From contig CAMDSO010000018.1 in the NCBI GenBank assembly GCA_945906935.1, positions 1 to 47,235 on the forward strand: DNA of 47,235 nucleotides, in the 5' to 3' direction. Positions 5,422 to 45,999 of this stretch are shown here, piece after piece. The notes under the pieces were generated by a model. That model did no database searches. It worked only from the letters and a program-made list of their open reading frames with translations, and was not told the origin of the DNA. Within the stretch, counting starts at the first letter, position 1; each line of letters opens with the position of its first letter. A program made the translations under genes and the position numbers. Source of the stretch: Bordetella parapertussis (GTDB taxonomy: Bacteria; Pseudomonadota; Gammaproteobacteria; Burkholderiales; SG8-41).

Positions 5422-6404
5422 TGCTCTGGTTTGATGGCGGAGTCCTGAATGACCTTGCTCCAGCGCTGCATTTCGGCCTTGAGAAAGGTGGCGAATTCTT
5501 GCGGTGAACTACCGACTGGCTCTGCGCCATCGAGATTGAAGCGTTGCACGACGTCCGGCAGCTTGAGGGTGTTCGCCACCGCGGTGGCCAGTTTTGTGAC
5601 AATCGCTGGCGGTGTTCCTGCGGGGACCATCATGCCCTGAAAAGCCTCGGCGTGATAACCGGGCAGGCTCTCGGCGACGGTGGCCACCTCCGGCATGCTT
5701 GGATGCCGCTTTGCGCTGGTAACGGCGAGGGCGCGCAGCTTGCCGCTTTTGACATGCGGTGCCGCCGAGATGGTGGTGGTGAAGAGCATGGTGATGCGCC
5801 CGCCGATCACATCGGTGACGGCAGCGGGGATGCCCTTATAAGGCACGTGGATCATGCGTATGCCAGCCATGCGTTGGAAGAGTTCCGCCGACAGGTGCGG
5901 CGCCGAGCCGCTGCCAGGGCTCGCGTAGGTCAATTCACCCGGTTTGGCTTTGGCGAGTGCGATCAGGTCACGCACCGTGCCGGCTGCCGCCGAGGGCGTG
6001 ATGACGATGACGTTGGGCTGGGTGTTCAACTGCGTGACGGGTACGAAATCGCGTATCGGATCGTAGGGCAGCTTCGGATACAAACCCGGATTGATGGCGA
6101 AGGTCGTGGTGATCATCAGGATGGTGTAGCCGTCGGCTGCTGCCTTGGCGGCGATTTCAGTGCCGACGATGGTGGCCGCTCCCGGACGCGAATCGACGAC
6201 GATGTTCTGACCCCATTGCTCGGTCAGTTTATGGCCGAGAAGACGCGCCGTGATGTCGAGACCGCCGCCCGGTGCAAACGGCACGATCAAACGCAGCGGT
6301 CGCTCGGGATAACGCGCGGCATCTTGCGCGAATGCGGCAGGCGCTGCCGCGAGCAGCGCAGCAGCAAGCGCGCACTGAAGAGGTTTCAAAGACAAGCGCA
6401 GCAT
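5418..6404 (-). CDS. Bug/TctC-family TTT substrate-binding protein
   Basis: A 328-residue receptor with a signal peptide ending AAPAAFAQ, ligand loop FAPGGGLDITARLLG, NVIVIT hinge segment and VPYKGIPAAVTDVIGGR. The frame is open much farther upstream, into the opine-dehydrogenase-like gene, but the ATG at 6404 is the only start that gives an export signal. It begins 13 bp after the stop of that gene. It is the last gene of a leftward operon with a hydrolase, an MBL-fold enzyme and an opine-DH-like enzyme. Together with the Bug gene at 9829 this brackets the enzymes with two receptors. Confidence 0.92.
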   Translation of the reverse strand: MLRLSLKPLQCALAAALLAAAPAAFAQDAARYPERPLRLIVPFAPGGGLDITARLLGHKLTEQWGQNIVVDSRPGAATIVGTEIAAKAAADGYTILMITTTFAINPGLYPKLPYDPIRDFVPVTQLNTQPNVIVITPSAAAGTVRDLIALAKAKPGELTYASPGSGSAPHLSAELFQRMAGIRMIHVPYKGIPAAVTDVIGGRITMLFTTTISAAPHVKSGKLRALAVTSAKRHPSMPEVATVAESLPGYHAEAFQGMMVPAGTPPAIVTKLATAVANTLKLPDVVQRFNLDGAEPVGSSPQEFATFLKAEMQRWSKVIQDSAIKPEQ

Positions 6405-20929: not shown

Positions 20930-21913
20930 TTATTGTTGCTGAACGGGGATGCCGGCTTCCTTGATCACACGTGCCCATTTGTCATGCTCGGCACGGACGA
21001 ATTTCGCGAACTCTGCCGGCGATGCGCTGGTGTTGGCATCAAGTTCAACATTGGCGAGCTTCGCTGTGACTTCGGGTAGCCGCATCATTTTGACGAACTC
21101 TTCATGCAGTCGCGTGATGATTTCCGGTTTGGTGCCCGTCGGCGCAAACAAGCCGTACCAAGTGATGACGACGAGTTCCGGCATGCCAGCTTCGGCGGCG
21201 GTCGGCACTTTCGGTAGCATGGCGACGCGTTCGTTGGCCATTACCGCCAGAGCGCGTATGCGTCCGGCATTGACCAGCGGGATGGTTGCCGGCACGGTGG
21301 AGGTCACCATGTCGACTTCGCCGGAGAGCATGGCGTTCATGGCGATCGCCGCGCCCTTGTAAGGAACATGCAAGATATTAATCTTCGACTGCGTCTTGAA
21401 TAATTCACTGCCAAGCTGGCTGCCCGACCCCAGTCCGCCAGAGCCGAAATTCAAGGTGCCGGGTTTGGCTTTCGCAAGTTTGATCAGTTCGTTGAGGCTT
21501 TTCGCCGGCACCGAAGGGTGCACCACCATTACGTTGGGCACCGTTGCCAGTAGAGTGATCGGTATGAAATCGCGAAAGGTGTCATAACCGAGTTTGGAAT
21601 ACAGGCTGGGACTGATCGCAATCGACGGGCTGGTCAGCAGCAGCGTGTAACCATCCGGCGGTGTTTTGGCGACAATTTCGGCAGCGACATTGCCGCCGGC
21701 ACCGGATTTGAAATCGGGTACGATCGATTGTCCGAGCGGTTCGCGCAAACGATCCGCGACCATCAGTGCCAGCACATAAGCCGCTCCGGTAGGAAAGGCC
21801 ACCACCAGACGGATGTTTTTTTCGGGATATTTTTGTGCGGATGCAACAGGCACCAGGGTAACGAGCGCGAGCAAAAAAAACACGGCGTGACAGATCGATT
21901 TTTTGACGGTCAT
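20930..21913 (-). CDS. Bug/TctC-family TTT substrate-binding protein with altered ligand loop
   Basis: A 327-residue receptor. The start at 21913 has GGAGGAATC upstream and gives the signal peptide KKSICHAVFFLLALVTLVPV. The family is shown by VPYKGAAIAMNAMLSGE and the usual domain layout. The first loop reads FPTGAAYVLALMVADRL: the Asp and the Arg of the common GG-x-x-D-x-x-AR are missing, and VPDFKSGAGG replaces VDNRPGAGG. It should therefore bind a different or less charged ligand. It is divergent from the acyl-CoA dehydrogenase at 22123. Confidence 0.92.
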   Translation of the reverse strand: MTVKKSICHAVFFLLALVTLVPVASAQKYPEKNIRLVVAFPTGAAYVLALMVADRLREPLGQSIVPDFKSGAGGNVAAEIVAKTPPDGYTLLLTSPSIAISPSLYSKLGYDTFRDFIPITLLATVPNVMVVHPSVPAKSLNELIKLAKAKPGTLNFGSGGLGSGSQLGSELFKTQSKINILHVPYKGAAIAMNAMLSGEVDMVTSTVPATIPLVNAGRIRALAVMANERVAMLPKVPTAAEAGMPELVVITWYGLFAPTGTKPEIITRLHEEFVKMMRLPEVTAKLANVELDANTSASPAEFAKFVRAEHDKWARVIKEAGIPVQQQ

Positions 21914-41155: not shown

Positions 41156-42127
41156 ATGAAGCAGTGGCAACCGTGTGCCCGTCTTGTGGCGGTGATGTTG
41201 CTCGTCTGTACGTGGCCGGTAGCTGCGCAGACGTATCCGGCGAAGGTCGTGCGTTATCTCGTCAATGACGGTGCCGGCAGCGGTGGAGATATCGTCGGTC
41301 GTGTGGTGGCGGCGGGGCTCGCAGAAGCCTTCGGGCAGCAGGTGATTGTCGATAACCGGCCGGGTGCCGGTGGACGCATTGGTGCAGAAATAGTCGCGAA
41401 AGGCGCGATCGACGGTTATACGCTGCTGCACATGAGCTCCAACCTCACCGCCAACGAGAGCCTCTACAAAAACAATCCGTATGACCTGATCAATGATTTC
41501 GCACCAATCACGCAGATTGCGCTCGCCCCTTTCGTCGTCATCGTGCATCCGTCGATGCCGGTGAAAAACATCGCAGATCTGACTGCGCTGGCACGCGCCA
41601 AGCCGGACGCGATCAACTATGCCTCGGCCGGCACCGGCTCGCGTTCCTTCGTTGATACCGCGATTTACGCCGGCATGGTCAAAGTGAAAATGGTACACGT
41701 GCCGTTCAAGGGTGGCGGCGAGGCATTGACCTCGGTGCTCTCGGGCGAAACGCCGCTGATGTTCGCGCCGGTGGCGACTGCGTTGTCCTATATCCGCGCT
41801 AACCGCGTGCGCGCCATTGCCGTGACCACCGCAAACCGTTTGCCGCTGCTGTCCGAACTGCCGACGGTTGCTGAATCGGGTGTGAAGGGATATGCCTCGG
41901 CGCACTGGTTTGGTTTGCTGATGGCGGCAAAGACGCCGAAGGAGATTACGGCCACCGTGCAGCGTGCGGTGGTGAGTGCGCTGGGCAAGCCAGACATCAT
42001 CAAGCGTATCAATGATCTGGGCTGCATACCGGTGGGTAACACGCCGGAAGAGTTCGGCGCTTTTCTCAAGACCGACGTCAAGGTGCTCGCCGCGGTGTTT
42101 AAGGCGAACGGCGTCACGGCGAATTGA
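41156..42127 (+). CDS. Bug/TctC-family receptor upstream of the selenoprotein
   Basis: A 323-residue receptor with signal KQWQPCARLVAVMLLVCTWP, loop NDGAGSGGDIVGRVVA, NRPGAGG, and VPFKGGGEALTSVLSGE (Phe for Tyr). A strong site AGGAGGA precedes the ATG. The selenoprotein gene starts 54 bp after its stop on the same strand, so the two very likely share a transcript. This suggests that the receptor supplies the substrate handled by that protein. Confidence 0.93.
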   Translation: MKQWQPCARLVAVMLLVCTWPVAAQTYPAKVVRYLVNDGAGSGGDIVGRVVAAGLAEAFGQQVIVDNRPGAGGRIGAEIVAKGAIDGYTLLHMSSNLTANESLYKNNPYDLINDFAPITQIALAPFVVIVHPSMPVKNIADLTALARAKPDAINYASAGTGSRSFVDTAIYAGMVKVKMVHVPFKGGGEALTSVLSGETPLMFAPVATALSYIRANRVRAIAVTTANRLPLLSELPTVAESGVKGYASAHWFGLLMAAKTPKEITATVQRAVVSALGKPDIIKRINDLGCIPVGNTPEEFGAFLKTDVKVLAAVFKANGVTAN

Positions 42128-42181: not shown

Positions 42182-43924
42182 ATGCCGCAACAGGAAAATG
42201 ACGGTTATTACGAAGTGTTGTGGCCGCGCTCGCCGCGTCAGCAGAAGGTGCGTGCGCTGGCCAAACGCCCGGATACTCTGAACGGTAAGACCATCGCCCA
42301 GGTTTGGGACTATCTTTTCAAGGGCGACCAGATTTTTGCGCTGCTCGAAGAAGGGCTGAAGCAACGCTATCCCGATGTGAAATTCGTCAGCTGGAAGGAG
42401 TTCGGCAGTAGTGCCGGCAAGGATGAGCGCGAGGTCGTCGCCGCGCTGCCCAAACGTTTCAAAGAGCTGGGGGTGGATGCCGTCATCTCCGGCATGGGGT
42501 GTTGAGGGAGTTGCACGCCCGCCGTGTTGCGGGCCAGCACCACCTGTGAGGCAGCCGGCTTTCCCTCGGCCTCGTTGATTTGCGATGGCTTCTCGAAACT
42601 CGCCGCCGCCGCCTCGGTCGGTCTTGGCATGCCCAATATTCCGATTGCCACGGTACCCGGCCATCCGGGTGTGCAAAGCGCCGAAGAGCTGCGTAAAAAT
42701 ATACTCGAACATACTCTGGATCGCGTGATCCAGAACCTTACGGTCAATCCGGCAGTGGCCGGCGACGATGCCGAGCCCGGTGCGCGCGATATCATTTTCA
42801 AAGGCGGCTTTGAGGCGGTGAACCGCTATTTTGTTGAACACGAATATTCCGACGGTCTGCCCGTCGTGCCGCCGACCCGTGCGAAGGTCGAGGCCTTTCT
42901 GCGCTACACCGATCGCGATCCTGAGGAGTCTCTGGGTCGCGTGCTGCCCGACAATCGCGCAGCCACTATCTGGAGCATTGCCGTCAACGGTGTGATGGCC
43001 GGCTGTCGCCCGGAGTACATGCCAGTGCTGGTGGCGCTGGTCGAGGCGATGGTTGATCCGAAATACGGTGTTGAACACAGCGGCAACACACCTGGCGGCG
43101 AGACGCTGATCGTGCTTAACGGTTCGATCATCAAGGAGCTGGGGTTTAACTACACCCAGGGCGTGATGCGCGACGGCTTTCAGCCCAACACCGCGGTGGG
43201 ACGCTTCTGGCGCCTGTATCTGAGGAATATTGCCGGTTTTCTATTGCACAAAAACGATAAGGCTACCTACGGTAACAATTACCGCATTGTTGTCGCTGAA
43301 AATGAAGACGTGCTGCGTGAGATTGCGTGGGAGTCGAACGCCACCGAATGGGGTTATGCGACAGGCGAGAATACGGTGTCGATCGCGCGCTATACCGGTG
43401 GCAATCTGCTGTGTTCTGCTTCCGGCAGCACGCCGGAAGAAATCATGGAATATCTCGCCGACGGTATGATCCGGCAAATTTCATGGCAGCTCGATTTTGT
43501 ACTCGGGCCGCATGGCGGCACGCTGCGCCCCATGTTGTTCCTGAGCCCGATCCTTGCGCAGACCATCGCCCGTGGCGGCTGGAAAAAAGCGGACGTCAAA
43601 AAATACCTGTTCGATCACGCCCGCATTCCCGCGTGGCAGTTCGAACGCATGTTGCGCGTGTGGACGAGTATGCCGGTGTGGGATCTCACCGACGCCGCCA
43701 AGAAGGGCGAGGTGCCGCCGGTGTTTCACGAATCAGACGACCCTGAGCGTCTGGTGCCGTTGGTGTGGAAGCCGGAGGACTATATGGTGGCCGTCACCGG
43801 TGATCTCACGCGCAACAACGCTTATGCCTTCGCCCACAACGGTGATCTCGGTTATACGGTCGGCAAAAAAGTCACGCTGCCGAAAAACTGGAGTGCGCTG
43901 CTGGCGGAGGAAAAAAAGCGTTAG
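42182..43924 (+). CDS. UGSC-family selenoprotein with large C-terminal domain (UGA = Sec108)
   Basis: One frame runs from the ATG at 42182 to the stop at 43924, interrupted only by a TGA at 42503. The context reads SGMGC-U-GSCTPAVL, exactly the U-G-S-C motif that names the UGSC (seleno)protein family, preceded by the family-like LNGKTIAQVWDYLFKGD and followed by GFPSASLICDGFSKLA and LGMPNIPIATVPGHPG. Read through, the product is 580 residues. The UGSC domain covers about residues 30-195, and an unassigned domain of about 385 residues follows (YSDGLPVVPPTRAKVEAF, EHSGNTPGGETLIVLNGS, ENTVSIARYTGG). Sec108 and Cys111 would form a U-x-x-C redox pair. No signal peptide. GGAGA lies 7 bases upstream. 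Ordinary gene calls would give two proteins. Confidence 0.92.
42503..42540 (+). promoter_or_regulatory. Sec codon and bacterial SECIS-like hairpin
   Basis: The UGA is at 42503-42505. Directly downstream, GCCCGC (42517-42522) and GCGGGC (42529-42534) pair perfectly around the loop CGTGTT. TGC (42512) and GCA (42537) extend the stem beyond a 2x2 internal loop. The apical loop begins 17 bases after the UGA and has G at its second position, as the published bacterial SECIS model requires. It should recruit SelB with Sec-tRNA. Confidence 0.85.
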
Positions 43925-44560: not shown

Positions 44561-45541
44561 TTATTCGCGCTCAATACCGGCGAGGCGTACTAGTTCTGCG
44601 GCGCGGCGGATGGCGCCGCCTATAAACAAGCGGAATTCCGCCGGTGTGTTACCCACCGGTTCGAGGCCGAGCGCATGCAGCCGTTCGCGTACCTGTGGAT
44701 TGGCGAGTGCGGTGCGCATCTCGCGCTGCAGTCGTGCGACGAGTGCTGGTGGTGTGCGTGGCGGGGCAAGCACACCATACCAGCTCGGGTCCATCTCCAT
44801 ACCTGTCACCCCCGATTCAAGCAGCGTCGGCCCCTCGGGCAGGATGGCGCTACGCGTTGCATTATTGTAGGCGATTGCGTGCAGCCGGCCGCTACGGATT
44901 TGTGGCAGAACGGTGGCGGAGTTGCCGAACATGAATTGAATTTCTCCGCCGATCAGGGCATTCATCAGCGGGCCACCACCCTTATACGGCACGTGCACCA
45001 TCGAAGTTCCGGCGCGTACGTTGAGGAGCGCGCCAGCCAAATGCAGCACGTTGCCTATGCCTGACGAGCCATAAGAGAACCTGGCTCCAGGCTTCTTCGC
45101 GAGCGCGATCAATTCCTGTGCGCTCTTGGCAGGAGATGCCGGATGGACCACCAGTAACAAGCCCTCTGAAGTGCAGAGGTTGGTGACTGGCGAGAAATCG
45201 TTCAATGGATCAAAAGGCAGTGTCCGATAGATCGCCGGATTTACTGCAAACGATGCGGAAGTAATCAGCAGGGTGTAACTGTCCGGCGCGCCTTTGGCGA
45301 TCAGGTTGGCACCGATGATGCCATTAGCGCCGGGGCGGTTGTCAAGCACGAATGACTGGCCCATTTGCGCCGTCAGTTGCTGGCCGAGGACCCGTGCTAC
45401 AGAGTCGGGTGCGCCAGCGGGCGCAAAGCCCAGTACCAGGCGCACCGGTCTCTGCGGGTAGGCGGTCGTCGTTTCCGTCGACGCGGCGAAGGAAAACCAC
45501 GGCACTATGCCGATGATTAATACGACGCAGGCGTTGCGCAT
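44561..45541 (-). CDS. Bug/TctC-family TTT substrate-binding protein
   Basis: A 326-residue receptor, signal MRNACVVLIIGIVPWFSFAA, loop FAPAGAPDSVARVLG, VPYKGGGPLMNALIGGE. The ATG at 45541 directly follows a GTG; GGAAAG lies upstream. The frame is open 31 codons farther, but that extension is the remnant of the cupin gene upstream, not a real N-terminus. In an operon with the cupin at 43944. Confidence 0.92.
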   Translation of the reverse strand: MRNACVVLIIGIVPWFSFAASTETTTAYPQRPVRLVLGFAPAGAPDSVARVLGQQLTAQMGQSFVLDNRPGANGIIGANLIAKGAPDSYTLLITSASFAVNPAIYRTLPFDPLNDFSPVTNLCTSEGLLLVVHPASPAKSAQELIALAKKPGARFSYGSSGIGNVLHLAGALLNVRAGTSMVHVPYKGGGPLMNALIGGEIQFMFGNSATVLPQIRSGRLHAIAYNNATRSAILPEGPTLLESGVTGMEMDPSWYGVLAPPRTPPALVARLQREMRTALANPQVRERLHALGLEPVGNTPAEFRLFIGGAIRRAAELVRLAGIERE

Positions 45542-45574
45542 CACGATGTTTACTTTCCGGCCGCTTCTTTTTCC

Positions 45575-45999
45575 AACGGCGTATTGCCGCTGGGGTCCGC
45601 GGCTGGTTAGATACAGCACTGCGCCCTCGCTCATGGTTTTGCCAAAATGCGCTTGATTGGCCGGTTCGGTGAAGAATCTGCCGGCCGGATGGGCGTGTGC
45701 TTGCTCTCATCCTATTTCTCGCCATAACCGATGTAGTGCACGCCAGACACCACCATGCCGTGCCGGTGAACCGGGTGTTTGTGCGCGAGAGCCTTGGCGT
45801 TGGGCGGCCATTTCACCCAATACAGATAAGGGCCGGCCTTGGACGGATGCCCCATCAGATAGGCATTCTCACGTCCGCTCGCTGATTTTTCCCATTTCAT
45901 TTCTTCGGGTTTGAGCAAAGTCACGCCCAGTGGCAGGCCGTCGGCGGCGTGCGCGTTGATGCATAACAGTGCAGCCGCAAGCAGCAGGATGCGCCTCAT
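45575..45999 (-). pseudogene. Broken exported cupin gene
   Basis: A start with GGAGGAGAACC upstream gives a signal peptide (RRILLLAAALLCINAHAA) and a cupin first half up to VVSGVHYIGYGEK, then TAG at 45712. Beyond it the homology continues as DESK, then in a shifted frame PAGRFFTEPANQAHFGK, then back in the first frame at an A5 run as TMSEGAVLYLTSRGPQRQYA. So one nonsense codon and two compensating single-base shifts interrupt a gene of about 140 codons. The 95-residue open part lacks the second cupin motif. A sequencing error can explain the A5 shift but hardly all three. Confidence 0.75.

Follow-up and report, generated by a model that had tools for sequence, protein, structure and literature searches.

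How is the TGA codon at positions 42503-42505 of the window (the whole stretch of 47,235 nucleotides analysed here) read, and what might the protein do that results if translation continues through it? The preliminary description had proposed that 42182-43924 form one frame with this TGA as the sole internal stop, and translation yielded exactly that, 580 residues followed by TAG. The codon lies in the context GMGC-U-GSCTPAV. The ORF list also agreed that mechanical calling breaks the gene into a 107-residue piece and a GTG-started 466-residue piece. The read-through frame is thus confirmed as an observation. The features of the gene are as follows.

42182-43924, plus strand: predicted fused UGSC selenoprotein gene, 580 aa, selenocysteine (Sec) at residue 108, stop TAG; Pfam PF24696, 103.2 bits
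42503-42505, plus strand: UGA codon, Sec reading suggested by comparison (TGA in 81 of 82 spanning alignments and 22 of 22 copies in the genome)
42212-42742, plus strand: UGSC domain, residues 11-187, predicted flavodoxin/Rossmann-like alpha/beta fold
42517-42534, plus strand: bSECIS-like hairpin GCCCGC-CGUGUU-GCGGGC, beginning 14 nt past the U of UGA, with frozen codon choice
42794-43921, plus strand: C-terminal partner domain, residues 205-580, without a Pfam or NCBIfam match

Family membership and conservation of the UGA codon

As the preliminary description had anticipated, the read-through protein matched the Pfam UGSC model, covering model positions 1-171 of 172 with residues 11-187 (E 2.3e-29; gathering cut-off 25 bits). 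Either half of the frame alone also matched this model. Against the NCBIfam UGSC equivalog NF041046 the window protein scored 50 bits, under the 125-bit cut-off.

Codon 108 was TGA in 81 of the 82 tblastn alignments that span it among the loci compared, four of them from the source genome itself (G000). The sole exception has Gly (GGC) at this codon within an open frame (L094). This exception, at L094:1367-3025, is a second paralogue from Lachnospiraceae in which GASG replaces UGSC, and the same locus holds a Sec copy; it is likely a non-redox member. Two separate genes with an unconserved codon, which the preliminary description had named as evidence against its reading, were not seen among the 82 spanning alignments. 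A homologue with Cys in place of Sec, also suggested there as a check, was found in the distant relative L123, which reads ALSDCGSCTSC (CGSC). Within the source genome we found 22 UGSC matches, and TGA was the first codon of the motif in all 22.

Two further observations concern the homologues. At G686:C6:12789-13246 (L125) a UGSC match falls into two pieces and the frame read contains more stops. Some metagenome-assembled genome names are apparently misplaced: for example, a copy 90% identical to that of the window is labelled Chitinophaga pinensis (L029), unlike most other homologue matches, which are labelled Betaproteobacteria or Burkholderiales.

A conserved hairpin downstream of the UGA

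A bacterial SECIS (bSECIS) is a hairpin lying just 3' of the UGA with G-U within its apical loop. The hairpin in the window has this form, with six pairs and the loop CGUGUU. We examined its conservation in 67 sequences (the window and 66 others), comprising only alignments of at least 57% identity that span codon 108. L086, L088, L092 and L096, which gave no alignment across the codon, and L094 (41% identity) were left out, and L077 was retained despite three stops in its alignment. A1 and A2 comprised 48 and 39 chosen sequences, respectively.

Codon bias was assessed over the 266 columns of the 67 aligned copies in which the residue is conserved and synonymous codons are available. The six strongest departures all lie next to the TGA, at residues 107, 113, 114, 116, 117 and 119. 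Leu116 is TTG in 64 of 66 copies (usual share 12%), Ser119 is AGT in 56 of 66 (8%), Arg117 is CGG in 67 of 67 (16%) and Cys107 is TGT in 59 of 62 (16%); Pro113 is CCC in 65 of 67 (30%) and Ala114 is GCC in 67 of 67 (37%). The hairpin itself spans codons 112-118, with codons 107 and 119 lying close by on either side. At its outermost position 61 copies have G-C, four have A-U and two a mismatch; 65 paired copies at this position were reached by none of 10,000 shuffles, which take no account of the relatedness of the sequences. Four of the other five pairs are invariant, which makes them uninformative on their own, and the fifth is C-G in 65 copies and U-G in two.

The same kind of structure recurs among the paralogues of the source genome. 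A stem of at least five pairs with GU in the loop followed the UGA in 20 of 22 copies versus 6.9% of 7,783 positions used as controls within those genes, and a six-pair stem was reached in 18 of 22 versus 3.0%, by limits that were chosen after the hairpins had been seen. Between UGSC subfamilies the stem sequence and its distance vary and the GU loop is constant. C48 has a strong hairpin with a loop lacking GU, and C143 a weak one of only three pairs. Overall, in the 67 copies the codons directly 3' of the TGA are frozen into a GU-loop hairpin of bacterial SECIS form.

Sec machinery and the reading of UGA

The source genome (4.64 Mb in 259 contigs, 97.5% complete, 3.3% contamination) carries selD (421.8 bits) and, together on one contig, selA (604.6 bits), selB (427.8 bits) and tRNA-Sec (75.5 bits). 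ARAGORN confirmed the tRNA-SeC, with anticodon tca. All four genes that the preliminary description had named as a check are thus present. The selD gene (G000:C29:9419-10345, L018) is itself a candidate selenoprotein gene, with an in-frame TGA and the motif GGGUGCK.

Together, the Pfam match, the sel genes with tRNA-Sec and the Cys homologue all favour the original proposal, and the identification of the window gene as a UGSC selenoprotein is, on this comparative evidence, well supported. We regard recoding of the UGA at 42503 as Sec as almost certain. Both pieces of the gene are valid mechanical ORFs, as they would be if the TGA were a true stop between two genes or had arisen through gene breakage or a sequencing error. 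Such a reading is however highly improbable given TGA in 81 of 82 alignments and in all 22 paralogues, the frozen hairpin codons, the Sec machinery and the Cys homologue. The 22 UGSC genes terminate in TGA (15), TAG (4) or TAA (3), and since 15 of them end in TGA, UGA is otherwise a normal stop; a genome-wide reassignment of UGA to another amino acid, which would also leave the window gene open across its in-frame UGA, can be dismissed as having a vanishingly small probability in a genome with these terminal codons and Sec machinery. With Sec as the preferred reading, SelB and Sec-tRNA would be recruited by the bSECIS hairpin that directly follows the UGA, and the stop would by that recruitment be read as Sec108.

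Expansion of the UGSC family in one lineage

The preliminary description dealt with one copy; beyond this, the same genome holds the set of 22 UGSC copies and their partner domain. The Sec position and the Gly that follows it are invariant across the 22. The motif is U-x-x-C in 20 and ends in Ser in the other two (UGSS and UGTS). The closest pair of genes shares 72% identity, and the copies are therefore not strain duplicates. With 259 contigs and an estimated 3.3% contamination, a stray contig may be among those that carry them.

UGSC genes were found in all 74 genomes searched of the same family, with one to at least 40 copies per genome (median 11) where up to 40 candidates per genome were scored. 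The total was at least 1,081 matches, 20 of the 74 genomes had 20 or more, and two had at least 40 each. Every one of the approximately 150 matches listed among the 1,081 contained one TGA. Across the order and the phylum, where up to eight candidates per genome were scored, matches were sparser. Order-wide, UGSC was matched in 45 of 399 genomes and exceeded the cut-off in 42, of which 13 belong to the family of the source genome; some genomes of three other families (f3, f6 and f12) had at least eight. In the phylum-wide spread, six of 397 genomes had a match (the source genome included) and five were over the cut-off; the 15 matches recorded comprised 12 with TGA and three with no stop. Within the numbers scored per genome, the expansion is thus characteristic of this lineage together with a small number of relatives. 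A literature search found no published report of it.

A partner domain in or beside the UGSC genes

The C-terminal part of the window protein belongs to a partner domain of about 350 residues (about 375 in the window protein) with the conserved motifs DGLPxxPPT, MAGC, NGP, GR and AENE. Searches with the Pfam and NCBIfam models gave no convincing named-family match for it. In the source genome 13 UGSC genes are fused to this domain and nine stand alone, and all nine adjoin a partner-domain gene; the domain search located a partner for 22 of 22. The residues D224, P227, A267, A273, G274, P281, G314, G340, R341, N349, E373, W383, G391 and G540 are kept in all 22 copies, and C275 in 19.

The pairing extends to other genomes. 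At five chosen UGSC loci elsewhere, one of them in the same genus, the partner lay in or beside the gene in every case. Per-genome counts of UGSC and partner domains correlated with r 0.98 over 62 same-family genomes, the 12 of 74 whose counts are lower bounds being excluded. Totals over the 62 were 778 partner and 694 UGSC domains, with equal counts in 19 genomes and counts within two of each other in 53. This excess of partners, together with an orphan partner-domain gene in the source genome (G000:C23:32937-33953, L119) with no UGSC motif nearby, indicates that the pairing is not strict. The gene upstream of this orphan resembles, by eye, a PEP mutase/isocitrate-lyase-type enzyme.

Gene neighbourhood

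Three features flank the window gene.

41156-42127, plus strand: Bug/TctC substrate-binding receptor gene, 54 nt upstream on the same strand; PF03401, 197.8 bits
43944-44534, minus strand: cupin-domain gene, a convergent neighbour and candidate unit member only; PF07883, 35.9 bits
47125-47232, minus strand: 3' end of a second partner domain, crossing the window edge where the window overlaps contig C241

Contig C241 (L102) overlaps the right end of the window at 97.6% over 591 nt and carries a complete fused UGSC gene; the distance between this gene and the one in the window is therefore probably no more than a few kb. Around UGSC genes generally we found genes for Bug receptors, MmgE/PrpD, amidohydrolase, enolase-type, SDR, CoA-transferase and hydratase proteins. 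These neighbours are compatible with catabolism, and the presence nearby of catabolic enzymes and Bug receptors gives a hint that the substrates may be small organic acids. Bug enrichment beside UGSC genes was not clear, at nine of 22 units versus 28 of 120 other genes at the same loci. Bug/TctC genes are very numerous in the source genome, with at least 150 matches (all 150 scored of 630 candidates); those in the window include 5442-6248, 20951-21763, 41156-42127 and 44561-45634. Because they are so common, a link between Bug and UGSC genes is weak evidence.

A gene follows downstream in 61 orthologous loci, and in eight of these the one directly after UGSC on the same strand encodes a thioredoxin-reductase-like flavoprotein (CAHC), starting 0 to about 75 nt past the end of the matched UGSC stretch. 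One of the eight flavoproteins was scanned and reached 261.5 bits against TIGR01292, below the cut-off of 343.45. The reductase-like gene is not beside the UGSC gene of the window.

Proposed function of the UGSC proteins

Each of the 22 diverged proteins combines a UGSC domain with a partner domain, in one chain or in two. We propose that each would act as a substrate-specific reductase in the manner of the selenoprotein B found in D-proline and glycine reductases. In this scheme the substrate would be held by the partner domain and attacked by the selenolate of Sec108. Cys111 of the U-x-x-C pair would then resolve the selenide, after which the pair would be restored by a thioredoxin-reductase-like flavoprotein dependent on NAD(P)H. 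The resolution step is not universal, because Ser replaces the second Cys in two of the 22 copies. We judge such a reductase mechanism somewhat likelier than its alternatives combined, and the same moderate confidence applies to recoding, two-component build and substrate-specific reduction taken together.

Profile searches give weak matches to these reductases. At E<=0.01, GrdB was matched by six of the 22 proteins (best E 1.4e-5), PrdB by six (best 4.4e-5), GrdF by four (best 6.5e-6), GrdH by two and TIGR01918 by one. The window protein reached 23 of the 300 bits of the curated PrdB cut-off (E 4.4e-5), and a PrdB/GrdB-type match was far under its cut-off (16.9 of 602.2 bits). No protein of the 22 matched Pfam GRDB (PF07355) at E 0.01. 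The sole GRDB match in the genome is a short stretch of 46.9 bits with no stop at G000:C228:921-1274 (L118). Membership of the PrdB/GrdB class is recognised by a pyruvoyl-type partner, PrdA or GrdE. The UGSC proteins are like PrdB and GrdB/GrdF in these weak profile matches, in the U-x-x-C listed for PrdB and in their two-component build, but differ in lying far under the family cut-offs and in having a partner without a convincing named family.

The proteins could instead serve in general thiol-redox chemistry or peroxide defence and not be substrate-specific catabolic reductases. The U-x-x-C of 20 of 22 copies agrees with such a role, and in the 2008 survey UGSC is grouped with the selenoproteins that have a Trx fold and a redox motif (PMC2398784); we consider this role unlikely, though the strongest competitor. 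It is distinctly improbable that UGSC proteins share descent with PrdB/GrdB and now act as a non-catalytic carrier, sensor or selenium store. Non-redox members do seem to exist, as in the Lachnospiraceae GASG paralogue beside its Sec copy (L094), but the Sec position and following Gly are invariant in the 22 copies. Returning to the reductase proposal, the PrdB and Cloacibacillus systems suggest that many reductases, each with its own substrate, may work in parallel in one genome. More tentatively, and with slightly less than even confidence, this betaproteobacterial family may possess a large modular class of selenoenzymes, with up to tens of UGSC/partner reductases per cell acting on different small molecules.

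Comparison with known systems

The UGSC-containing selenoprotein family (PF24696; NF041046) was reported from GOS metagenomes in 2008, and the table of that survey lists 255 Sec and 21 Cys forms (PMC2398784). The proteins described here are like that family as tabulated in having the U-G-S-C motif, a Pfam match over the cut-off and Sec far more often than Cys, but differ in that the window protein lies under the NCBIfam cut-off and 22 copies occur in one genome. The legend to Figure S1A of the same survey describes UGSC fused to an uncharacterised conserved domain, Unknown_1 (PMC2398784); since that fusion was published in 2008, the fused form is not new. Judged by its description, the partner domain is likely Unknown_1. 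Unlike the UGSC/Unknown_1 fusion, the partner in the source genome also occurs as a separate neighbouring gene. The window gene is a member of a known family, probably in a fused form already known; the family and a fusion were described before, and the surprise is the copy number and the constant partner in the source genome, for which the literature search found no earlier report. Because gene calling that is blind to Sec breaks every UGSC gene in two at its UGA, members of the class readily escape notice. Concrete starting points for finding the role of the family are offered by its partner domain and by the reductase-like neighbour.

For PrdB of C. sticklandii, it has been proposed that Sec attacks a substrate carbon and that a PrdB Cys resolves the selenoether, and electrons for glycine reduction in this species pass via thioredoxin reductase (PMC3091704). 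Cloacibacillus porcorum has eight grdB paralogues, predicted selenoproteins, with one operon tied to fluoroacetate reduction (PMC10838667). The UGSC system resembles this fluoroacetate reductase (FarB/FarE), as described there, in its paralogous predicted Sec proteins, which would serve different substrates, and in a transporter gene in the operon; it differs in that the C. porcorum system belongs to the GrdB/GrdE family, comes from an anaerobe and has fewer copies. The selenoprotein-richest bacteria reported are mostly anaerobes, with 57 genes and, in one Methylomirabilota metagenome-assembled genome, 63 (PMC13188914). Here two genomes each owe 40 genes or more to a single uncharacterised family. 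If the modular class of reductases suggested above is real, the UGSC proteins would represent an undescribed catabolic branch, and one family would by itself bring selenoprotein counts close to the largest selenoproteomes known in bacteria.
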